A DNA stretch of 64,000 bases. Source: Pseudidiomarina tainanensis. GTDB lineage: Bacteria > Pseudomonadota > Gammaproteobacteria > Enterobacterales > Alteromonadaceae. A program made the position numbers and the translations under genes. The DNA lies in the NCBI RefSeq assembly GCF_004214835.1, contig NZ_PIQJ01000002.1, forward strand, positions 248,001 to 312,000, given 5' to 3'. Shown here one piece after another: positions 28,588 to 55,468 of the stretch. The notes beneath the pieces are model-generated. The model saw nothing but the letters and a program-made list of their open reading frames with translations, made no database searches and was not told the DNA's origin. How positions within the stretch are numbered: the first letter of the stretch is position 1; each line of letters begins with the position of its first letter.

Positions 28588-28645
28588 TCAGCGCAAGGTT
28601 AATTTGCAACCAGACTGCGTATACTGCATGCATTGATATTTGATT

Positions 28646-28659
28646 TTGATCTGCATCAG
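28646..28659. promoter_or_regulatory. FNR box overlapping the fnr leader
   Basis: TTGATCTGCATCAG matches the FNR consensus TTGAT-N4-ATCAA at 9 of 10 positions. It ends ten bases before the fnr ATG and touches the Shine-Dalgarno AGGA. Downstream placement relative to a TATACT at 28620-28625 would make it a repressor site, as in E. coli fnr autoregulation. Confidence 0.7.
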
Positions 28660-28668
28660 GAAAACGTT

Positions 28669-29373
28669 ATGGCGAATATGACTTCACACATTCATTGTCA
28701 AAATTGCAGCATGGCAGCTCTGTGTTTGCCATATCAGTTAGATCAAGAAGGTATGGCACGCCTCGATACCATTATTCAGCGTCATAAGCCGTTACACAAA
28801 CGCGATGTGTTAGTAAACGCCGGCGCGCCACTGAAGTTTTTATATGCGGTTCGCAGTGGTTCACTAAAATCATACACGATTGATGATAATGGCGTTGAGC
28901 AAATCATCGACTTCCATTTACCCGGCGATTTGATTGGCTTCGACGCGCTTGCTAGAAGCGAACACCGAAGCTATACCCAAGCGCTTGAAACCAGCATGCT
29001 GTGCGAAATTCCCGTGAGCTCGCTCGATGATCTCGCGGAACAAATGCCAGGCTTACGCCGTCAAATGTGGCGCTTAATGAGCGGTGAGATTTTCACCAGC
29101 AAGCAATTGCTCGGAACACTCAATAATCGCTCTGCACAGCAACGTTTAGCGCATTTTTTGGTGACCCTTGCTGATCGCTTTAAAGAGCGAGGCTTATCAA
29201 GCCGTTCATTCCGACTCACCATGACTCGCGCTGACATCGGTAACTATCTGGGATTATCAGTCGAAACCATCAGCCGCATTCTATCTGCACTGCAGTTGGA
29301 GGGCGTGATTGATGTCCAGAACAAACTCGTCAATGTCATTGAGCCAACCCGCTTGCGCGAGCTGGCTCAGTAA
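28669..29373 (+). CDS. fnr: Anaerobic global regulator FNR
   Basis: This 234-residue CRP/FNR-family regulator senses oxygen through a [4Fe-4S] cluster. The cluster cysteines are at 10, 13, 19 (C-x2-C-x5-C) and 112, as in E. coli FNR. The effector-domain block LYAVRSGSLKSYTIDDNGVEQI is followed by the dimer helix and the C-terminal HTH with recognition helix VETISR, which reads TTGAT. The ATG at 28669 has AGGA upstream; a TTG 36 bases earlier would place the FNR box inside the gene and is unlikely. It is positioned to control the whole 28-47 kb cluster. Confidence 0.95.
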   Translation: MANMTSHIHCQNCSMAALCLPYQLDQEGMARLDTIIQRHKPLHKRDVLVNAGAPLKFLYAVRSGSLKSYTIDDNGVEQIIDFHLPGDLIGFDALARSEHRSYTQALETSMLCEIPVSSLDDLAEQMPGLRRQMWRLMSGEIFTSKQLLGTLNNRSAQQRLAHFLVTLADRFKERGLSSRSFRLTMTRADIGNYLGLSVETISRILSALQLEGVIDVQNKLVNVIEPTRLRELAQ

Positions 29374-29383
29374 CTTGCACGGC

Positions 29384-29923
29384 CTATTGGCAACCGCCAC
29401 AACAGTGGCCGTTGCCATGGTGGCCTTTAGTTGCTTCTTCAGCCTGCTTAAACAGCACACTGTTTTCAATCGCTATATGCTGGTGTAAGTCACTCACAAA
29501 TTCGTTAATGCCTTCATACAACATAATCCAACTACCGCAGGCGCCGCGCGGTGCATTGCACTGATTCGTAAGTTCTAAAAGCTGCGCAATCATTTGCTCA
29601 TGTTGATCATGCTCTTCTTCCATAACCGCAATTGGACCTTTTGGATAAATGCCACCAGCCAACATCGGGAATAAAATTTGTTCTTCTTTCATCATGTGAC
29701 TTTCAAGCTCTTGGTACATGGCTTGCAAATGTTCAGCTAAACCCGCTGGGCATTCGTTGTGGTCATTGTGCACGTCTTCGATTTTACGCGCTAAGTTGAT
29801 GAGATCAGGTAACTGCGCACGATGCTTCTCATGAAAGTGTTCAATCATGAATTCAGTGAGTGCTTTTTTCGGCATGGCTTGATAAACGGCAAGAGCTTCA
29901 CTGTGAACGGTTTGGGTAGTCAT
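29384..29923 (-). CDS. ric: Di-iron iron-sulfur-cluster repair protein (RIC/YtfE/DnrN family) without the N-terminal ScdA domain
   Basis: This 179-residue hemerythrin-like protein aligns with the C-terminal two thirds of E. coli YtfE. Di-iron ligand candidates are all present: His31, His52, His76, Glu80, His105, His149 and Glu153, including SHMMKEEQ and IAIEN. The N-terminal ScdA_N domain with its CCGG motif is missing. Instead, the C-terminus ends in HCCGGCQ (173-179). Such proteins repair nitrosylated Fe-S clusters or buffer NO; NorA of Ralstonia eutropha is a comparable short form. Divergent from norR and preceded by a sigma-54 promoter with NorR sites. AGGAG precedes the ATG, and a small hairpin (29947-29960) lies in the leader. 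Confidence 0.9.
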   Translation of the reverse strand: MTTQTVHSEALAVYQAMPKKALTEFMIEHFHEKHRAQLPDLINLARKIEDVHNDHNECPAGLAEHLQAMYQELESHMMKEEQILFPMLAGGIYPKGPIAVMEEEHDQHEQMIAQLLELTNQCNAPRGACGSWIMLYEGINEFVSDLHQHIAIENSVLFKQAEEATKGHHGNGHCCGGCQ

Positions 29924-29989
29924 AACGTCTCCTAGCTAAAATTTTCCGCTGCAAGCAGCGTCATTCATAGTATTTACCCCTTAACTGGT

Positions 29990-30004
29990 GCAATTTTGGT
30001 GCCA
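29990..30004 (-). promoter_or_regulatory. Sigma-54 promoter of the ric gene
   Basis: On the minus strand TGGCACCAAAATTGC matches the sigma-54 consensus TGGCAC-N5-TTGC exactly. It lies about 67 bases upstream of the ric ATG and about 50 bases from the nearest NorR site, the spacing seen at norZ. Confidence 0.85.
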
Positions 30005-30045
30005 AAACTACCCACTTTGATTTATATCGAGTTTTTATCCGCAAT

Positions 30046-30102
30046 GGTAAATTAAACCCAATAAAGTTCGGGTCATTCCGGCCTAAAAGGGTTGTTTTTA
30101 CC
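30046..30102. promoter_or_regulatory. Three NorR sites between ric and norR
   Basis: GGTAAATTAAACC (30046-30058) and GGTTGTTTTTACC (30090-30102) match the NorR core GGT-N7-ACC exactly. GGTCATTCCGGCC (30071-30083) differs in one base of the right arm. Centres are 25 and 19 bases apart. The last site directly abuts the norR ATG, so NorR binding could also affect its own expression. Confidence 0.8.
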
Positions 30103-31659
30103 ATGCATGATGTCTCTTTATTGGAAACGTTAATTGCCGACTTAGTGACCGATTTACCGGCGGTCATTCGGCTCGAAAAAGTTGTCAAAACACTGCGCAC
30201 CCACTTCAACTGTGGCGCTGTGGTGATACTCAAACATGACCAAGATATGTTGCGTCCTATTGCAAGTATCGGGCTCGCCCGCGAAGCGCTAGGTCGGCGA
30301 TTTTTAGTCCCCCAACACCCGCGCCTCGAACGCATTTTAAGTAGTCGTGAAACGGTTCGGTTTGAGCCAGACAGTAGCTTGCCTGATCCGTATGATGGAT
30401 TAATTGAAGACAGCCCAGATGGGCACCTTGCAGTGCACGATTGCATGGGTATTAGCTTATATATTGAAGGTAAATGTTGGGGCGTCCTGACACTGGATGC
30501 GCTTAACCCAGGCACGTTCGATAATAACACCATGCAAGCCTTGCAACGCGCCAGCTTACTGGTAGAAGCGGCCATTCGTATGGGGCTGATTGAGCAAAAT
30601 ATTCGGTCCTTGCGTAACAATCGCCGCGATAGTGAATACTCACTTACCAGCAACAGCAACGATGGCCAAGAAATTATTGGCCGCAGTGCGGCATTGATGA
30701 CCGTGTTACAAGAATTAGAAGTGGTTGCTGGTTCTGATTTACCGGTACTGTTACTGGGTGAAACGGGTGTCGGTAAAGAGCTTTTTGCGCGCCAACTCCA
30801 TCGTTTATCACCACGCAACCACAAGCCGTTGGTTTATGTAAACTGTGCGGCGTTACCAGAAACCTTGGCTGAAAGTGAACTGTTTGGGCATACCCGCGGA
30901 GCCTATTCAGGTGCAACCGGGGAACGTGCCGGACGTTTCGATAGTGCCGATGGTGGTACGATCTTTTTAGACGAAGTCGGTGAGTTACCACTAGCGATTC
31001 AAGCCAAGTTGTTGCGCGTTTTACAAAATGGTGAAATTCAGCGCTTGGGTAGCGATAGTTCACATAAAGTGAATGTTCGAATTGTGGCAGCGACGAATCG
31101 CGATTTGAAACAACAAATCAAGTCTGGCGACTTCCGCGCAGATTTATATCACCGTTTGTCGGTTTATCCGTTGCCGATTCCACCACTGCGTGAACGCCAC
31201 GATGACATCGCCGTGCTGGCGGGACATTTTCTTGAGCTCAACCGCGCTCGCTTGGGTGTTCGGGCATTACGTTTATCACCAGCCGCCGAGCAAGCACTGC
31301 AACGCTATGACTGGCCAGGTAATGTGCGCGAACTGGAGCACACTATCAGCCGCGCCGCCATTAAAGCTTTAAGCTTGGGCGCTCGCCGCGATGATATTGT
31401 CAGTATTGATGCGCAATTACTGGATTTACCCACTGCTGTGGTGCCAGCAGTAGGCGCGCATGAGCTGCCATTACCGAAAACATCAGGCTCATTAGATGCT
31501 GGTGCATTAAACTTGAAAAATGCGGTACAAACGGTGCAACGAGAACTCATTCAACAAGCTCTCGAGCATACTGACTATAAATGGACACAAGCTGCCCGTA
31601 TACTAGACCTTGATCCGAGCAACTTGCATAAGCTTGCCAGCCGCTTGGGGCTTAAATAG
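30103..31659 (+). CDS. norR: NO-responsive sigma-54 activator NorR
   Basis: This 518-residue enhancer-binding protein has an N-terminal GAF domain holding a mononuclear iron that binds NO, a central AAA+ domain and a Fis-type HTH. Ligand candidates matching E. coli NorR are Asp95 and Asp98 (DPYDG), Cys114 (HDCMG) and Asp132. Walker A is GETGVGKE (219-226). The sigma-54 contact loop reads GAYSGA (266-271) where most activators have GAFTGA, a conservative change. The C-terminal helix-turn-helix WTQAARILDLDPSNLHKLA fits NorR. Divergent from ric; its likely targets are ric and norZ. Confidence 0.94.
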   Translation: MHDVSLLETLIADLVTDLPAVIRLEKVVKTLRTHFNCGAVVILKHDQDMLRPIASIGLAREALGRRFLVPQHPRLERILSSRETVRFEPDSSLPDPYDGLIEDSPDGHLAVHDCMGISLYIEGKCWGVLTLDALNPGTFDNNTMQALQRASLLVEAAIRMGLIEQNIRSLRNNRRDSEYSLTSNSNDGQEIIGRSAALMTVLQELEVVAGSDLPVLLLGETGVGKELFARQLHRLSPRNHKPLVYVNCAALPETLAESELFGHTRGAYSGATGERAGRFDSADGGTIFLDEVGELPLAIQAKLLRVLQNGEIQRLGSDSSHKVNVRIVAATNRDLKQQIKSGDFRADLYHRLSVYPLPIPPLRERHDDIAVLAGHFLELNRARLGVRALRLSPAAEQALQRYDWPGNVRELEHTISRAAIKALSLGARRDDIVSIDAQLLDLPTAVVPAVGAHELPLPKTSGSLDAGALNLKNAVQTVQRELIQQALEHTDYKWTQAARILDLDPSNLHKLASRLGLK

Positions 31660-31705
31660 CAACAGTGCTCACATTTGGTTTAAGCAATTACGGATTCGGT
31701 ATTCT

Positions 31706-32101
31706 ATGAAGGTCATTTTGCGCATACTGCTGTGGCGCACGATAGCAATTTTGGCGTTACTGCTTGGGTTAATCGGCTTATTGTTGCCGATTATGCCAAC
31801 GGTACCGTTTTTATTAGTCGCTGCATGGGCGGGTGGTAAAGGCTGGCCGGTACTTGAGCAAAAATTGCTTTCTCACCCCAAATACGGCCCGCAGATAATC
31901 GCTTGGCGTAAGCACGGCGTAGTGAAACGTCAACCCAAAGTGATCGCCTCGGTGATGATGGGCGGTAGCGCCATTATGCTGAGCTTCAGCCCAGCACCGT
32001 TGGCGCTAAAGTTTGCCATCATTGGCATTATGGCGACTATCGCGTTTTGGCTCTGGCTACGTCCTGAATCCGCACCCGCCGATACAATCGATGCCGATTA
32101 A
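31706..32101 (+). CDS. ybaN: YbaN-family (DUF454) inner-membrane protein
   Basis: This 131-residue protein has three or four hydrophobic segments. The family block LLGLIGLLLPIMPTVPFLLVAAW is followed by KLLSHPKYGPQIIAW. DUF454 members have no settled function. The ATG at 31706 is preferred over an in-frame start inside norR because it begins at the family N-terminus. It follows norR by 46 bases, suggesting read-through, and its stop overlaps convergent nnrS. Confidence 0.85.
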   Translation: MKVILRILLWRTIAILALLLGLIGLLLPIMPTVPFLLVAAWAGGKGWPVLEQKLLSHPKYGPQIIAWRKHGVVKRQPKVIASVMMGGSAIMLSFSPAPLALKFAIIGIMATIAFWLWLRPESAPADTIDAD

Positions 32102-33306
32102 CCCGGGCGCCCATCAGGCCGCGGCGTGATAAGAATGGGCAGATACACCACCACATAAATCGTATAGGCAATAATCCACGTTGCCGCCGCAAATACCAAC
32201 CATGACATCGCTAAATCAGGGACCAACCAAGTCAGTACCACACGGGAAAGCGCCGCTGAAATAACCAAGAGGAATGCCAACGACATGATGGCTTTAGGCT
32301 GGAGTGGGCGACCACTATGACCCAAGGATACGCGTGCAATCATGGCCAAAATCATATTGCCCATAGCGCCGGCTGTTAATGCGTGCAAGGCGATCGAGTT
32401 GGTGATGCTGGTGATACCCAACTCACGCAAAGCAAACAATGCAAGGCCAACCGGAATAAACCAATAAGCGACGTGCAAGGACCACAGCAGTGGCACCCGT
32501 AGCGTGATCCAAATGCGCCAGCGCAAACAGCGAATACCTAAGGCAACGGCGCTAATTCCGTATAAAGCTGCCATGACACCATTCGGTAGCTGCGCGCTGA
32601 ACAAAGTAATATTCAGGATAAAAATCAGCCACAAGCTGCCGAGCCCTATACGATCCAGCCACTCAATCGGTTGCGCTTTTTGGGTCATGGTGCCGTTGGC
32701 GGTGAACATCGGCAGTACTCGACCACCCACAATCGCCATCAATAACGTGACCAACCAAACTGCATTTTGACTTCCCAATTGCTGTATATCGAAACGTCCA
32801 CTCACCAAGCCATAGTGCATCAATGCATTACAGAATGTGAGCAAGAACAACACCGGAACAAAGAATAGGTTACGCTGTTGTTTGACTCGAATAAGTGGAA
32901 CCGCCAATAAAATCGCTGCCAACGGTAAAAACAATAAGTCCACCGCGGCAACTAACCAAGTTGGTAACCCCGCGCCAAATAACATGAACAAGCGACCGCT
33001 TAACCACACCACGGTTAAAATACCCAGAGCCCGACCATGGGTCGCGCGTAATCCCGTCCAGTTTTGGACAGCAGTGAGTAGGAAGCCCACAATAATTGCT
33101 GCGACGAAGCCAAAGATCATTTCATGGGCATGCCAAAACATCACTTGCCCGTATACCGGCAACGACACTTGACCACTGAGTACCAGTATCCACAACAACA
33201 TCGCGATGGCACTGAAGCTCGCGCCCAGCAAGAACATGGGACGAAAAGCTTGGCGCAATAACGGCCACATTTTTTGTTCAACCTGTAAATCGGTAATTTG
33301 TAACAT
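32098..33306 (-). CDS. nnrS: NnrS family haem-copper membrane protein
   Basis: This 402-residue protein has about twelve transmembrane helices and the NnrS blocks FRPMFLLGASFSAIAM, FWHAHEMIFGF (His ligand candidates) and HALTAGAMGNMILAMIAR. NnrS proteins hold haem and copper and reduce nitrosative stress in Vibrio cholerae and denitrifiers. It lies 35 bases after ubiV on the same strand, so it probably belongs to a ubiU-ubiV-nnrS operon. Confidence 0.92.
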   Translation of the reverse strand: MLQITDLQVEQKMWPLLRQAFRPMFLLGASFSAIAMLLWILVLSGQVSLPVYGQVMFWHAHEMIFGFVAAIIVGFLLTAVQNWTGLRATHGRALGILTVVWLSGRLFMLFGAGLPTWLVAAVDLLFLPLAAILLAVPLIRVKQQRNLFFVPVLFLLTFCNALMHYGLVSGRFDIQQLGSQNAVWLVTLLMAIVGGRVLPMFTANGTMTQKAQPIEWLDRIGLGSLWLIFILNITLFSAQLPNGVMAALYGISAVALGIRCLRWRIWITLRVPLLWSLHVAYWFIPVGLALFALRELGITSITNSIALHALTAGAMGNMILAMIARVSLGHSGRPLQPKAIMSLAFLLVISAALSRVVLTWLVPDLAMSWLVFAAATWIIAYTIYVVVYLPILITPRPDGRPG

Positions 33307-33341
33307 GAGCTCTCCCTATTTGATCGAGCGTTAAGCGAATA

Positions 33342-34220
33342 TTAATCGAGCTGTTGCACAAGTCCTGCCAGCGCTAACCAATAGCCATTGCTATCATTTT
33401 TATCCAACCGCTGTGGCGCACCACCTGCCACGTTAGCGCGAAATTTCTCGAGCCAGTCAAAAGTTCCAACTAACTGCGGACTTAACCGCACAACATCCAC
33501 CAAGCCATCCATATTCGGGAGTTGGTTGACCAAGTTATAGCGGCTGCCTGATTGCGTTTGAATACCGTTCAGCACAAACACCTGTTGGCCTTCTTGACTG
33601 GTGACCGGACGCCCTTCTGGATAGTTGATGCAAACCAGTTCGCATTGATCTTTGGGGCGGTTTTCGGAGCGCGCGGTAAAACACCGTCCTGACCACGCCA
33701 GCGGCATGTGTCCTAGCGCGAACACTTCCACTTCAAAACAATCGCGGACATCGTGCACCATGGGTTGTTGCAACAGATTTGCCAGCCACTCGCGCGACAA
33801 CTCAACTGGCATCACCCAGCGGTTCATACCTAAGCTCATTAATTTGCGTAATGTATGTTGGTTGTAGCAGTTAATAGCAGCACCTGCAACGAAGGGCACT
33901 TTGTGCTCTTGGAGATAAGGAATGGCGCCAACATCATTCGCTTCGACCAAGAATTCACCGTTATCGCAGTACTTGCGTAGCTCACGTAATTCCGACGGTG
34001 CCTCGAGTAACGTCATGGTTGAAAGGCAAACCTGCTTACCCGCTTCGCGCAACATATGCGCTATTGCCATGTAATCTTCAAACTTCAGCTCGCGTCGTTT
34101 GCTACAAACGGTTTCGCCGAGGTAAACGATATCCACAGACGATTCTGCCGCCTGTTGATAAAAATTATCGACCACTTGTTTGGGCCAAAAATACTGAATT
34201 GCTCCAAGAGAAAATTTCAT
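33342..34220 (-). CDS. ubiV: O2-independent ubiquinone hydroxylation protein UbiV
   Basis: This 292-residue U32-family protein partners UbiU to hydroxylate ubiquinone precursors without oxygen. The start MKFSLGAIQYFWPK matches E. coli UbiV (YhbV); an ATG four codons upstream is less likely. Cysteines for the [4Fe-4S] cluster include one in VCSKRR and those in CFTARSENRPKDQCELVC. It starts two bases after the ubiU stop. Confidence 0.94.
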   Translation of the reverse strand: MKFSLGAIQYFWPKQVVDNFYQQAAESSVDIVYLGETVCSKRRELKFEDYMAIAHMLREAGKQVCLSTMTLLEAPSELRELRKYCDNGEFLVEANDVGAIPYLQEHKVPFVAGAAINCYNQHTLRKLMSLGMNRWVMPVELSREWLANLLQQPMVHDVRDCFEVEVFALGHMPLAWSGRCFTARSENRPKDQCELVCINYPEGRPVTSQEGQQVFVLNGIQTQSGSRYNLVNQLPNMDGLVDVVRLSPQLVGTFDWLEKFRANVAGGAPQRLDKNDSNGYWLALAGLVQQLD

Positions 34221-34222
34221 CG

Positions 34223-35218
34223 TTATTTCCATTTTCGGTGGTAAGCGCCAAGGGTGGTTTGGCTCCCCTCAGATAAACCTGCCAAAACATGATCCCACTG
34301 TTCTTGCACGGTGAACTGCGCTGGATTTGCCATCACGGCATCAATGGCTTGACGCCATACTTGGGTGATTTGAGCAACATACGCTGGGCTACGTTGGCGC
34401 CCCTCGATTTTCAGTGACGCTATGCCTTCTTTGTATAACTCAGGCAGTAGACTGAGCGTGTTCAGACTGGTTGGCTCTTCTAAGGCATGGTAAGTATCGT
34501 CACCAACTTTGAAGCGGCCTTTACATAGCGTTGGATAACCTGCGGTTTCGTTCGGCGCAAAGCGATCAATCAAGATATTATTCAGACGCGACTCTAAGGT
34601 GCCGTCGTCGGCTTCATCCCAACGAACGAATTTAGCGGGTGAGCAAGCACCAGCAGTGTTAGGCGATTCGCCCGTCATGTACGAACTTAAATAACAACGC
34701 CCTTCAGCCATAATGCATAAGCTGCCAAATGCGAAAACTTCAAGCTCGATGTCGGTGGTGCGTGCAATCGCCCGCACTTGATTCATCGACAGCACGCGCG
34801 GCAATACCACTCGGCTGACACCAAACTGTTTATAGAACTCAATCGCCGCCGCGTTGGTTGCCGACGCTTGTACCGACAGATGTAGTTCGACTTTGGGATA
34901 CCGATCGGCGGCATACGCTAATACCGCCATATCAGCGAGGATCAGCACATCGGCGCCAGCTTTAACGGCCATATCCACAGCTCGACGCCAATTTTCAAAA
35001 GTATCCGCATGCGCGAACGTATTAATCGCAACATGAAGCTTCTTACCGTGCTGGTGTACATATCGCGCCGCTTCGGTTAACCCCGCTTGATCAAGGTTTA
35101 ACCCAGCAAAGTGCCGCGCATTGGTTTCGTCTTTGAGGCCGACATACACCGCATCGGCGCCGTGCTCAATCGCCGCTTTTAAAGCTGGCATGCTGCCAGC
35201 CGGACACAGAAGTTCCAT
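34223..35218 (-). CDS. ubiU: O2-independent ubiquinone hydroxylation protein UbiU
   Basis: This 331-residue U32-family [4Fe-4S] protein has the N-terminus MELLCPAGSMPALKAAIEHG and the cluster cysteines in CIMAEGRCYLSSYMTGES...GACS plus a later Cys (TLCKGRF). It forms a complex with UbiV for anaerobic quinone hydroxylation. The chosen ATG at 35218 begins the family sequence; the frame is open upstream without similarity. It is divergent from ubiT, as in E. coli. Confidence 0.94.
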   Translation of the reverse strand: MELLCPAGSMPALKAAIEHGADAVYVGLKDETNARHFAGLNLDQAGLTEAARYVHQHGKKLHVAINTFAHADTFENWRRAVDMAVKAGADVLILADMAVLAYAADRYPKVELHLSVQASATNAAAIEFYKQFGVSRVVLPRVLSMNQVRAIARTTDIELEVFAFGSLCIMAEGRCYLSSYMTGESPNTAGACSPAKFVRWDEADDGTLESRLNNILIDRFAPNETAGYPTLCKGRFKVGDDTYHALEEPTSLNTLSLLPELYKEGIASLKIEGRQRSPAYVAQITQVWRQAIDAVMANPAQFTVQEQWDHVLAGLSEGSQTTLGAYHRKWK

Positions 35219-35305
35219 AATTATTGATCCCGTCGATAAACATGCATTCGTAATGAGTATTATAATCCGATGAATATTTTCCGGGACATTAATGGACGGC
35301 AACTT

Positions 35306-35812
35306 ATGGTTATCCCAAAAGTAGTAGATCACTGGCAGCAGCTAATGAGAGGTTTGAATAGCGCTCTGCACATTGTACCCAAACCCTTGTCAGAACAAGT
35401 GCTTGGGGCAATTTTGAACCACGTATTAAAGCCAGAGTTACAACACCAAAAACTCCAATTTTTAGTGGGTCAATGGGTACAAATTGAAGTTCCTGATCTC
35501 AGCTTAGTATTTTATGTCACCGCCATTGCGAGCCCGCACACCATGCGTCTGAAAGTAACGGTAAAACCGCAACAAGCAGCTGTTACGATGCGCGGAAATA
35601 GCGCCTCGCTGGTATTGCTGATGAGTGGTCAAGTGGACCCTGACACCCTGTTTTTCCGGCGCAAATTACTTATCAAAGGCGACACTGAACTCGGCTTATC
35701 GGTGAAAAATTTACTCGATACAATTGAGCTCGAGGGGCGTCTGCCTAGCACGCTATATCGAGCCACCCAAGAAACCGCTAGCCTGATTTTAGCAAAGCCC
35801 GAATTGCGCTAA
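35306..35812 (+). CDS. ubiT: Anaerobic ubiquinone biosynthesis accessory factor UbiT (SCP2 domain)
   Basis: The protein of about 168 residues has an SCP2-like lipid-binding domain and the UbiT hallmark DPDTLFFRRKLLIKGDTELG, continuing with LSVKNLLDTIELE. UbiT supplies the hydrophobic pocket for quinone intermediates when oxygen is absent. The second in-frame ATG (35306) gives a length like E. coli UbiT. The first (35270) lies at the edge of a TATAAT (35261-35266) and would leave no leader. Divergent from ubiU, upstream of hemN. Confidence 0.88.
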   Translation: MVIPKVVDHWQQLMRGLNSALHIVPKPLSEQVLGAILNHVLKPELQHQKLQFLVGQWVQIEVPDLSLVFYVTAIASPHTMRLKVTVKPQQAAVTMRGNSASLVLLMSGQVDPDTLFFRRKLLIKGDTELGLSVKNLLDTIELEGRLPSTLYRATQETASLILAKPELR

Positions 35813-39746: not shown

Positions 39747-39760
39747 TTGATCCAGATCAA
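39747..39760. promoter_or_regulatory. Exact FNR box upstream of nrdG
   Basis: TTGATCCAGATCAA matches the FNR consensus at all ten specified bases. On the minus strand a TATGCT (39720-39725) would place the nrdG start near 39713, putting the box centre about 41 bases upstream, the class II activator position. It is more than 300 bases from norZ. Confidence 0.85.
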
Positions 39761-39856: not shown

Positions 39857-39912
39857 GGTAATTTCTACCGACGCGGTTGAAATGACCGCTGACGAATTGG
39901 GTTGATTTAACC
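39857..39912. promoter_or_regulatory. Three exact NorR enhancer sites upstream of norZ
   Basis: GGTAATTTCTACC (39857-39869), GGTTGAAATGACC (39875-39887) and GGTTGATTTAACC (39900-39912) all match GGT-N7-ACC exactly. Centres are 18 and 25 bases apart. Three sites per promoter is the known arrangement for NorR in E. coli and Ralstonia. The site nearest the promoter is about 50 bases from its minus-24 GG. Confidence 0.88.
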
Positions 39913-39954: not shown

Positions 39955-39970
39955 TGGCACGGGGCTTGCT
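39955..39970 (+). promoter_or_regulatory. Sigma-54 promoter of norZ
   Basis: TGGCACGGGGCTTGCT is a perfect match to TGGCAC-N5-TTGCW. It lies 98 bases upstream of the norZ start and downstream of three NorR sites. Confidence 0.9.
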
Positions 39971-40067: not shown

Positions 40068-42344
40068 ATGGCCGGTTATAAAAAGTTATGGTGGATACTG
40101 ATTGCCATTTTGGCAATTACCTTTGGTGTCCTCGGTTATTTCGGTAAAGAAGTTTACCGTGTCGCTCCGCCTATTCCGGATCAAGTGGTGACCGAATCGG
40201 GTCAAGTACTGATGACGGAAGAGACGATCCTTGATGGTCAAACTGCTTGGCAGTCGGTCGGTGGTATGCAATTGGGCTCAATTTGGGGTCATGGCGCCTA
40301 TCAAGCACCGGACTGGACAGCTGACTGGTTGCACCGCGAATTGTTAGCCTGGTTAGAAATATCTGCGCAAAACCAATATGGTCAAAGCTATGAAAGCTTA
40401 ACTGCGGCACAACAGAACGCGCTGCAGTTTGAGTTGAAACAAACCTATCGTAACCCACAATACAATGCGGCAACCGATACGCTGACCGTTGATGCGGTGC
40501 GAGCTGAAGCCATTGCACAAACCGCTGAATACTACAGCCGTTTGTTCAGCGATGACTTGTCACTGCGTAGTACCCGTGAAAGCTATGCCATGAAAGAAAA
40601 CACATTACCAAGCGCAGAGCGTCGCGAAGTAATGACTCAGTTTTTCTTCTGGACTGCGTGGGCAGCGGCAACCGAGCGTCCTGATAGTGACGTCACTTAT
40701 ACCAACAACTGGCCACATGAGCCGTTAATTGATAACAAACCAAGTGCAGAAAATATCATTTGGTCTTTGGTTTCAATTATCTTATTGATCGCCGGTGTTG
40801 GTGGCTTGATTTGGGCTTGGGCGTTCTTGCGTGACCATGACGAAGAAGAGCCTGAAGCACCGAAAAAAGATCCAATTAGCTTGGTTAACTTAACACCGTC
40901 ACAAAAAGCACTGGGTAAATACCTGTTCTTGGTCATGGCGCTGTTTATTGTGCAAATTTTCCTCGGTGGTTTCACCGCCCACTATACCGTTGAAGGCCAA
41001 GAGTTCTATGGCATCAACGTATCGCAGTGGTTCCCATACTCACTGGTACGTACCTGGCACATTCAGGCCGCACTATTCTGGATTGCAACTGGCTTTTTGG
41101 CTGCAGGATTGTTCCTTGCTCCGATTATCAACGGTGGCAAAGATCCGAAATACCAAAAACTCGGTGTCGATATCTTGTTCTGGGCATTGGTTGTGGTTGT
41201 CGCCGGTTCATTCATCGGTAACTACTTAGCTATCGCGCAAATCATGCCTGAAAACCTTAACTTCTGGTTGGGTCACCAAGGCTATGAGTACGTCGACTTA
41301 GGCCGTCTCTGGCAGATTGGTAAGTTCACCGGTATCGTGTTCTGGTTAGGTTTAATGTTGCGTGGTGTTGTCGGCGCCTTCAAACAGCCTGGTGACAAAA
41401 ACTTACTGGCGCTATTAACTGCTTCAGTGGTTGCGATTGGCTTGTTCTACGGCGCTGGTTTCTTCTACGGCGAGCGTACTCACATTTCAATCATGGAATA
41501 CTGGCGCTGGTGGATTGTTCACCTGTGGGTAGAAGGCTTCTTCGAAGTATTTGCAACCGCAGCGTTAGCATTCATCTTCCATAGCATGGGCTTAGTGTCA
41601 CGTCGTATGGCTACTGCCGCTTCATTGGCTTCAGCATCATTGTTCATGTTAGGTGGCGTACCAGGTACTTTCCACCACTTGTACTTCTCAGGTACAACAA
41701 CTCCAATTATGGCGGTCGGCGCGACGTTCTCAGCGCTTGAAGTTGTACCATTGGTTGTACTTGGTTACGAAGCTTGGGAAAACTGGAGCTTACAGAAACG
41801 TGCTGATTGGATGCAACGCATTAAGTGGCCTCTGATGTGCTTCGTTGCGGTTGCGTTCTGGAACTTCTTGGGTGCTGGCGTATTGGGCTTCATGATTAAC
41901 CCACCGATTGCGCTGTATTACATCCAAGGCTTGAACACTACGCCAACTCACGCTCACGCAGCATTGTTTGGGGTGTACGGTTTCTTAGCAATTGGCTTCG
42001 TACTACTTATCTTGCGCTACATTCGTCCGAACTTCGCATTCAACGATAAGATCATGAAAACCGCCTTCTGGTGGATGAACATTGGTCTGTGCATGATGCT
42101 GTTCACTAGTTTGTTGCCTATTGGCTTCATCCAGTTCTTTGCATCGGCATCTGAAGGCTTGTGGTACGCACGTAGCGAAGAATTCATGCAACAGCCATTG
42201 CTTGAGAGCTTACGTTGGATTCGTACTGTCGGTGACGTGGTGTTTATCATCGGTGGTCTTGCAGTGGCTTATCAGGTTGTTATTGGCCTGTTCGGCAAAC
42301 AGCAAGAAGCTGAAGAGGACGCAAAACCGGTCACTGTGAAGTAA
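40068..42344 (+). CDS. norZ: Quinol-dependent nitric oxide reductase (qNOR, single subunit)
   Basis: This 758-residue membrane enzyme reduces NO to N2O using quinol. The N-terminal part (about 30-220) is the NorC-like hydrophilic domain without a haem-c motif, which marks qNOR. The C-terminal NorB-like domain has about twelve helices. His ligands lie in TWHIQAALFW, HLWVEGFFEVF (with conserved Glu), GTFHHLYFSG and HAHAALFGVYG. The ATG at 40068 follows GGAGG. The promoter is sigma-54 with three NorR sites, so NO itself should induce it. A strong terminator follows. Confidence 0.95.
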   Translation: MAGYKKLWWILIAILAITFGVLGYFGKEVYRVAPPIPDQVVTESGQVLMTEETILDGQTAWQSVGGMQLGSIWGHGAYQAPDWTADWLHRELLAWLEISAQNQYGQSYESLTAAQQNALQFELKQTYRNPQYNAATDTLTVDAVRAEAIAQTAEYYSRLFSDDLSLRSTRESYAMKENTLPSAERREVMTQFFFWTAWAAATERPDSDVTYTNNWPHEPLIDNKPSAENIIWSLVSIILLIAGVGGLIWAWAFLRDHDEEEPEAPKKDPISLVNLTPSQKALGKYLFLVMALFIVQIFLGGFTAHYTVEGQEFYGINVSQWFPYSLVRTWHIQAALFWIATGFLAAGLFLAPIINGGKDPKYQKLGVDILFWALVVVVAGSFIGNYLAIAQIMPENLNFWLGHQGYEYVDLGRLWQIGKFTGIVFWLGLMLRGVVGAFKQPGDKNLLALLTASVVAIGLFYGAGFFYGERTHISIMEYWRWWIVHLWVEGFFEVFATAALAFIFHSMGLVSRRMATAASLASASLFMLGGVPGTFHHLYFSGTTTPIMAVGATFSALEVVPLVVLGYEAWENWSLQKRADWMQRIKWPLMCFVAVAFWNFLGAGVLGFMINPPIALYYIQGLNTTPTHAHAALFGVYGFLAIGFVLLILRYIRPNFAFNDKIMKTAFWWMNIGLCMMLFTSLLPIGFIQFFASASEGLWYARSEEFMQQPLLESLRWIRTVGDVVFIIGGLAVAYQVVIGLFGKQQEAEEDAKPVTVK

Positions 42345-47140: not shown

Positions 47141-47174
47141 GCTTATTGATACACATCAAAACTTTGCCGCATGA

Positions 47175-54337: not shown

Positions 54338-55468
54338 GTGTTCATTCATCTGCCGACATTAATTATTACGACGATTATTTTAAATGGTGTACTCGGAACA
54401 ACACTGCTCGCAATTCATCGTGCCATCCCGTCCCAAAAGAGCTTCAAGACATGGGCGCTCGCTTGCTTCTTATTTGCGTTGGCAAACATTTTAACTGCCC
54501 TACGAGGCACTCTTGAGCAACCTTGGCTCACCATTTTTGTGGCCGATCTATTGATCATCAGCGTGCCATTACTCGCATTACATGGCATGCGGCAATACCG
54601 ACAACAAACAGCTATTGCGCCCACGAGTATCATTCTGACGTTAACCGGTAGCGCCGTTGTATTGGTCGTTGCTCAAGCTTTCGCATCGATTGCACAAGCA
54701 ATCACCGCTATCATCTGTGGTTTGATTTACCTATTTGCCGCCAACTATCTTCGCCATATTCGACCTACACCACGTGTCATGCGACACTTATTAATGGGTC
54801 TGTTTGGGGTGCATGGCTTGTTGATGTTAATGATGGCGGGCACATCATTACAGCACATTGATACGCATCAAAATTTATTAACCTCTTTACTCATGGCGCA
54901 CTTAATCATGACGACCATGACAACGTTGCTGTTTCCTGTCCTCGCGTTTTCCCATAATGAACGTCAGCTTCTAAAGATTGCGCATTTAGATGAACTGACG
55001 GAGTTATTTAATCGGCGTGCGTTTTTTGAACAAGGTGCGCTACTTCTCGCACAAAATAAGCAACTGGAAAAACCGTCCTGTATCTTGATGATCGATCTCG
55101 ACCATTTCAAATCGATTAATGACAAGTTTGGTCACGCCGCAGGTGACGCATGCCTGCGCCACGTTGCCGAAATTATCCGAAATCACATGCGTGAACGCGA
55201 TGTCGCCGCACGTATTGGAGGTGAGGAATTTGCCGTGGCACTCGCCGACGTTGACCGACCACAGGCAGAACGAGTAAGCCTACGTTTAGTTGAACGCATC
55301 GCCTCGCAGCCGTTGCATTTCGATGGCTATGATATTGCGCTGACCGTTAGTGTTGGAGGGATTCTTAACCGCAACAGCGCGCGCCCGTTGGATGACTTGC
55401 TCAACGATGCTGACACGGCGCTTTATGCAGCCAAAGCTGGTGGCCGAAACCAATTCAAATTTGCATGA
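54338..55468 (+). CDS. Membrane-bound diguanylate cyclase (GGDEF)
   Basis: The 376-residue protein has about seven N-terminal transmembrane helices (residues 5-205) and a C-terminal GGDEF domain. The active site reads GGEEF, and the inhibitory RxxD site is RERD five residues before it, so the enzyme should make cyclic di-GMP with product feedback. The start is GTG with GAGAGAAG upstream. The sensor region matches no named domain that I recognise. Confidence 0.9.
   Translation: MFIHLPTLIITTIILNGVLGTTLLAIHRAIPSQKSFKTWALACFLFALANILTALRGTLEQPWLTIFVADLLIISVPLLALHGMRQYRQQTAIAPTSIILTLTGSAVVLVVAQAFASIAQAITAIICGLIYLFAANYLRHIRPTPRVMRHLLMGLFGVHGLLMLMMAGTSLQHIDTHQNLLTSLLMAHLIMTTMTTLLFPVLAFSHNERQLLKIAHLDELTELFNRRAFFEQGALLLAQNKQLEKPSCILMIDLDHFKSINDKFGHAAGDACLRHVAEIIRNHMRERDVAARIGGEEFAVALADVDRPQAERVSLRLVERIASQPLHFDGYDIALTVSVGGILNRNSARPLDDLLNDADTALYAAKAGGRNQFKFA

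Follow-up and report, generated by a model that had tools for sequence, protein, structure and literature searches.

NorR-controlled promoters are the closest described counterparts of the locus reported here. NorR detects NO through the iron of its GAF domain, whereupon its AAA+ domain is set free, and in Escherichia coli three enhancer sites scaffold the NorR ring and IHF bends the DNA (PMC2941729, PMC4601167). All three E. coli sites have been reported to be essential, and the GT core is described as being among the most conserved NorR positions (PMC1274295). In Ralstonia eutropha (Cupriavidus necator), according to PMC1274295, PMC9268430, and PMC9045102, NorR controls ric (norA) together with norB. 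In Ralstonia solanacearum, deletion of norR lowered norA, and norB is reported not to be under NorR (PMC9045102), so co-control of ric and an NO reductase is not universal. Predicted NorR sites of dnrN of Pseudomonas stutzeri are already in print, and Rodionov et al. describe NorR motifs that differ between groups. NorR-driven ric plus NO reductase is known already; we add an arrangement in which the genes are split and their arrays lie 10 kb from each other, an erosion of one site that is conserved, and a survey of NorR loci. The initial annotation of this DNA had suggested that NO reduction and Fe-S repair look like one NorR regulon in this lineage; such a combination has already been described for norAB of R. 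eutropha.

We analyzed a window of 64,000 nucleotides of Pseudidiomarina tainanensis (contig NZ_PIQJ01000002.1, positions 248,001 to 312,000), in which the following three genes were identified.

29384-29923, minus strand: ric, encoding a RIC/YtfE/NorA-type di-iron protein of 179 aa with a hemerythrin domain only
30103-31659, plus strand: norR, encoding a protein with GAF, AAA+ sigma-54 activator, and Fis-type HTH domains (Pfam)
40068-42344, plus strand: norZ, encoding a quinol-type NO reductase (qNOR) with a NorB cytochrome c-like domain and COX1

NorR scored 702.8 bits against NCBIfam NF003451, over the curated cut-off of 476. RIC was below its family cut-offs (192.3 versus 254 bits for NF008221 and 151.3 versus 204.7 bits for TIGR03652); its hemerythrin domain is PF01814, and the six iron-ligand positions are identical to those of YtfE, for which the ligands are named in PMC9268430. 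A domain search of the RIC of the window did not find the ScdA_N domain with its DfCCgG motif. RIC of Neisseria gonorrhoeae is likewise described as being without this N-terminal domain (PMC9268430), so the protein of the window would be expected to work like a short-type RIC.

ric and norR are divergent, and the 179-base gap between them contains a sigma-54 promoter and three NorR-type inverted repeats. These elements, and the corresponding ones upstream of norZ, are as follows.

30004-29990, minus strand: sigma-54 promoter (-24/-12) of ric, TGGCACCAAAATTGC, 0 mismatches to TGGCACN5TTGC
30008-30030, minus strand: conserved block between site 1 and the sigma-54 site of ric, TCGATATAAATCAAAGTGGGTAG, containing half of an IHF-like site (AATCAA) and one FNR-like half site
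30046-30058, centre 30052: NorR-type site 1 of ric, GGTAAATTAAACC in plus-strand letters, GGT-N7-ACC, 49 bases from the -24 GG
30071-30083, centre 30077: NorR-type site 2 of ric, GGTCATTCCGGCC in plus-strand letters, eroded, 74 bases from the -24 GG
30090-30102, centre 30096: NorR-type site 3 of ric, GGTTGTTTTTACC in plus-strand letters, GGT-N7-ACC, 93 bases from the -24 GG
39857-39869, centre 39863: NorR-type site 3 of norZ, 93 bases from the -24 GG
39875-39887, centre 39881: NorR-type site 2 of norZ, intact, 75 bases from the -24 GG
39900-39912, centre 39906: NorR-type site 1 of norZ, 50 bases from the -24 GG
39955-39969, plus strand: sigma-54 promoter of norZ, TGGCACGGGGCTTGC, perfect match

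The initial annotation had placed a perfect sigma-54 promoter facing ric, on the opposite strand and ten kilobases off, and this was borne out: the element points at ric (ATG at 29923, minus strand) and lies 9.95 kb from that of norZ, and both are among the 7 zero-mismatch sigma-54 matches genome-wide. The centre-to-centre steps it had given, 25 and 19 for ric and 25 and 18 for norZ, were exact to the base, and the nearest site, placed by it about 50 bases from the -24 GG in both promoters, lies at 49 (ric) and 50 (norZ). All three norZ sites have the GT-N7-AC core; that the middle ric site is imperfect is a detail it had not noticed. In R. eutropha, norR-norAB comprises one norAB operon, whereas in the window 10 kb separate ric from norZ, each gene has an array of its own, and the middle ric site is eroded.

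Of the 26 genomes compared within the genus, this one among them, 20 had a NorR orthologue, and the same 20 had ric; a weak ric match in G025 (E 6e-5) was excluded from the count, and G001, which has neither gene, is a genome only 77% complete. norZ, searched for in the 28 genomes having a NorR orthologue, was present in 18 of these 20 congeneric genomes and missing from G007 and G015. Loss of the spacing in close relatives was the first outcome that the initial annotation had named as contradicting it, and the outer sites were conserved throughout. Upstream of ric, site 1 was 49 bases and site 3 was 92 to 94 bases from the -24 GG in 20/20 promoters; upstream of norZ, the distances were 49 to 51 and 92 to 95 bases, respectively, in 18/18. 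The sigma-54 element of ric had one mismatch in 17 of the 20 congeneric promoters and two in G015.

The middle site of ric did not follow this pattern of conservation. One of its arms has become GCC, which gives GT-N7-GC on the plus strand and GC-N7-AC read towards ric; the promoter-side ACC arm and the position are kept, and the T of the GT in the other arm is lost. Of the 20 congeneric ric promoters, 18 had a middle site without the GT-N7-AC core; in 15 the site was GC-N7-AC with the promoter-side arm intact. The norZ middle site retained its core in 13/18 promoters, and in the remaining five (G003, G004, G006, G012, and G016) the core was absent from both middle sites. Among the 21 ric loci in a survey of named organisms (best 80 of at least 587 NorR relatives), the middle site was missing in only one. 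Either two and a half sites may suffice at ric, or ric may need more active NorR than norZ does. It is possible, if doubtful, that NorR of this genus fires ric from a two-and-a-half-site enhancer with a higher threshold than norZ, which would break the rule, drawn from E. coli, that three sites are essential. The erosion is the part of these results that could surprise a specialist, and the eroded sites constitute natural variants for asking how many sites the NorR ring needs.

We compared array geometry across the named survey, in which 78 of the 80 loci had enough upstream DNA (L159 and L217 were left out). When the sigma-54 site was picked solely by the number of sites upstream of it, 59 of the 78 loci had two or more sites, with distances clustering at 47 to 49, 72 to 74, and 91 to 94 bases. 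In the comparison by target, in which up to 3 mismatches in the sigma-54 site were allowed, ric loci had outer sites at 46 to 49 and 91 to 94 in 21/21 cases and a middle site at 71 to 74 in 20/21, hmp loci had 48 to 51, 73 to 76, and 93 to 96 in 31/39 (four hmp-linked loci of unclear operator class being entered as misses), and both qNOR loci had ric-like geometry. In all six norVW loci, E. coli K-12 included, the sites were at 60 to 62, 84 to 86, and 104 to 107. norVW arrays lie about 12 bases farther from the -24 element than ric, hmp, and qNOR arrays, with nearly equal inner steps. The distances differed at the four nnrS-linked loci of this survey, which had one or two sites each. In a second set of 21 NorR loci, an array was found in 19, several of these at 60 to 63 and 85 to 87 with only two sites found and two (L137 and L138) off both registers; none was found at L126 and L135.

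The steps of the array thus belong largely to NorR itself, and two offsets from the promoter are common. The E. coli K-12 norR-norVW locus resembles the present one in its divergent norR, three sites of the GT-N7-AC type (the middle one being eroded at ric), and sigma-54 promoter, with steps of 24 and 21, and differs in its GTC...GAC operator, the position of the array (62, 86, and 107 from the GG), and its flavorubredoxin target. The norR-hmp loci of Pseudomonas and relatives share the array position (mostly 48, 74, and 93 in the best-80 named survey) and differ in their GTC...GAC operator, a NorR outside the ric/qNOR clade, and their flavohaemoglobin target. The initial annotation had held the likeness of the two arrays to be special to ric and norZ or to this lineage, and here it was not supported: the ranges 46 to 51, 71 to 76, and 91 to 96 apply to 20/21 ric and 31/39 hmp loci of the named survey. 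Because the same geometry precedes ric, hmp, and qNOR, what we see is a standard NorR enhancer and not a private link between ric and norZ; the geometry marks predicted NorR dependence in general. Outer sites 42 to 46 bases apart, the nearest about 48 or about 61 bases from the -24 element, fit the ric, hmp, and norVW promoters of the named survey, which suggests that spacing may help in recognizing NorR targets across proteobacteria. Judged by title, nothing on point was found among the first literature listings for a NorR spacing rule or for NorR with Idiomarina.

Taken from the DNA sequence, the ric and norZ stretches are very probably NorR-dependent sigma-54 enhancer-promoters that drive NO reduction and iron-centre repair together. 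Weighing against this reading are the eroded middle site of ric, the sigma-54 mismatches among relatives, the extra pattern matches given below, the exemption of norB from NorR in R. solanacearum, and the few NorR loci with no array or one off register. NorR, encoded by the gene adjoining ric, would bind as dimers upstream of the -24 element, at about 49, 74, and 93 bases from it; NO on the GAF-domain iron would free the AAA+ ring, and the freed ring would open sigma-54 RNA polymerase at ric and norZ, such that NO would be reduced while damaged iron centres undergo repair. The constant spacing, which recurs in many genera and before various NorR targets, would reflect assembly of the NorR ring on the DNA. 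Bound NorR probably restrains norR itself, as the last base of ric site 3 directly precedes the norR start codon and occupancy of the site should therefore hinder norR expression. The proposal of one NorR regulon comprising ric and norZ stands as a prediction, with the spacing conserved, norR adjoining ric, and no third array found in this genome by a pattern of a sigma-54 site plus one NorR site. Run on 27 genomes, this pattern recovered 19/20 ric and 17/18 norZ promoters of the genus. It is strict enough to have missed ric in G015 and norZ in G003 and might therefore also miss a third, weaker target. The pattern gave 14 extra matches in the 27 genomes, versus 1 for a control pattern. We inspected 10 of the 14, including the single one in this genome (G000:C1:966768-966836), and took them as chance matches because all were within open frames of 243 to 789 aa and none had the 49/74/93 array.

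GGT-N7-ACC alone is common, and the sigma-54 scan by itself was unremarkable (14 window matches with at most one mismatch versus 9.5 expected). The complete array pattern, defined as a sigma-54 site plus three GGT-N7-ACC sites, with one mismatch allowed in the former and one in total across the latter, occurred twice in the window (ric and norZ) versus 0 times in 150 first-order Markov windows, and 80 shuffled NorR loci gave 0 arrays under a stricter sigma-54 rule, one that misses many Pseudomonas hmp promoters. A chance origin of the arrays, through random resemblance to short motifs, is hardly conceivable, being contradicted by conservation of the outer sites in 20/20 ric and 18/18 norZ promoters. 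Alternatively, the shared geometry could stem from copying of one promoter from the other as norZ separated from an ancestral operon that it shared with ric. Such a history would suit the outgroup genome G058, in which qNOR begins 11 bases behind ric, the 9 of 21 ric loci of the best-80 named survey with qNOR downstream on the same strand, and the distance of 9.9 to 14.9 kb that norZ keeps from ric in 18/18 congeneric genomes. However, ric/norZ identity outside the motifs was 25 to 41% at the common register in six genomes, not clearly above other registers, and the same geometry is found before targets other than ric and norZ. We consider this history unlikely and rejected promoter duplication, as the six genomes gave no clear ric-norZ similarity outside the motifs.

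Another possibility, which we rate as very unlikely, is that NsrR or FNR is the main regulator of ric and that the NorR array serves only norR autoregulation. Among the best 30 ric loci of the order (of 65 ric-matching genomes among 295, with RIC of G015 as query), 8 had a NorR array, 11 had, allowing one mismatch, the NsrR-type palindrome of Rodionov et al., 11 had neither, and 0 had both; also, an FNR-like box with one mismatch is located at 30017-30030. In the window, however, no NsrR-type site with fewer than two mismatches was found; the match at 30092-30108, which has two, overlaps the norR start, and we rejected an NsrR site at ric. The best NsrR candidate of the genome reached 103 bits versus a cut-off of 182, a score that a divergent NsrR might also give. 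Moreover, relatives differ in the second half of the FNR-like box, and the sigma-54 promoter, which is conserved in the genus, faces ric. Since 11/30 loci had NsrR-type sites and none had both, NorR arrays are not simply found wherever one looks; within the order, ric seems to have switched from one regulator to another.

Operator type was compared across 83 loci. GGT-N7-ACC operators were present in 27, and all 27 NorRs had SNLHK in the recognition-helix region; Arg replaced that Lys in all 44 readable GTC...GAC loci and in all 11 loci of unclear operator class, one further GTC...GAC locus being without the recognition-helix region. In a quick tree, the 27 GGT-N7-ACC NorRs formed one side of a branch with an SH-aLRT of 100, and all 25 loci with a divergent ric or qNOR neighbour belong to this clade. 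L210 (Shewanella indica), with qNOR upstream on the norR strand, is outside the clade, and no array was found there. These data suggest that operator type goes with a single NorR clade linked to ric and qNOR.

The block at 30008-30030 (TATATAAATCAAAGTRGGTAG) hardly varied among the 20 congeneric ric promoters, and the Rheinheimera-like loci L140 and L141 had a similar one. Its sequence is explained by neither a complete FNR site nor a complete IHF site, and an FNR palindrome was rejected as the reason for it, its second half differing among relatives. Scored against the IHF consensus, and with no chance control, 3/20 congeneric ric and 7/18 norZ promoters had a match at 8 of 9 positions, and 29/38 hmp-linked and 5/5 norVW loci of the best-80 named survey had one at 8 or 9 of 9. 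Perfect TTGATN4ATCAA boxes, which we take to be FNR-type boxes, were found in the window at 39747-39760 (between nrdG and norZ), 47146-47159, and 54858-54871; with at most one mismatch there were 9 matches versus 3 expected. At 28633-35812, three genes resembling ubiV, ubiU, and ubiT lie with fnr, ric, norR, and nnrS in an anaerobic/NO gene cluster.

RIC of the window ends in CCGGCQ. A CCG[GS]CQ tail was present at the C terminus of 20/20 congeneric RICs, 19 of them without an N-terminal DFCCGG, and both features occurred together in the RICs of G015, L140, L141, L228, and L229, relatives of this kind having the look of intermediates; L103 was noted alongside the last four for the tail, and RIC of L230 ends in CCGSCS. 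In the best-80 named survey, RICs from 2 of the 21 ric loci had the tail, and it was absent from the four short RICs of L151, L154, L155, and L160. The simplest reading is that RIC gained the tail and then lost its N-terminal domain, as though the pair of cysteines had moved from one end of the protein to the other.
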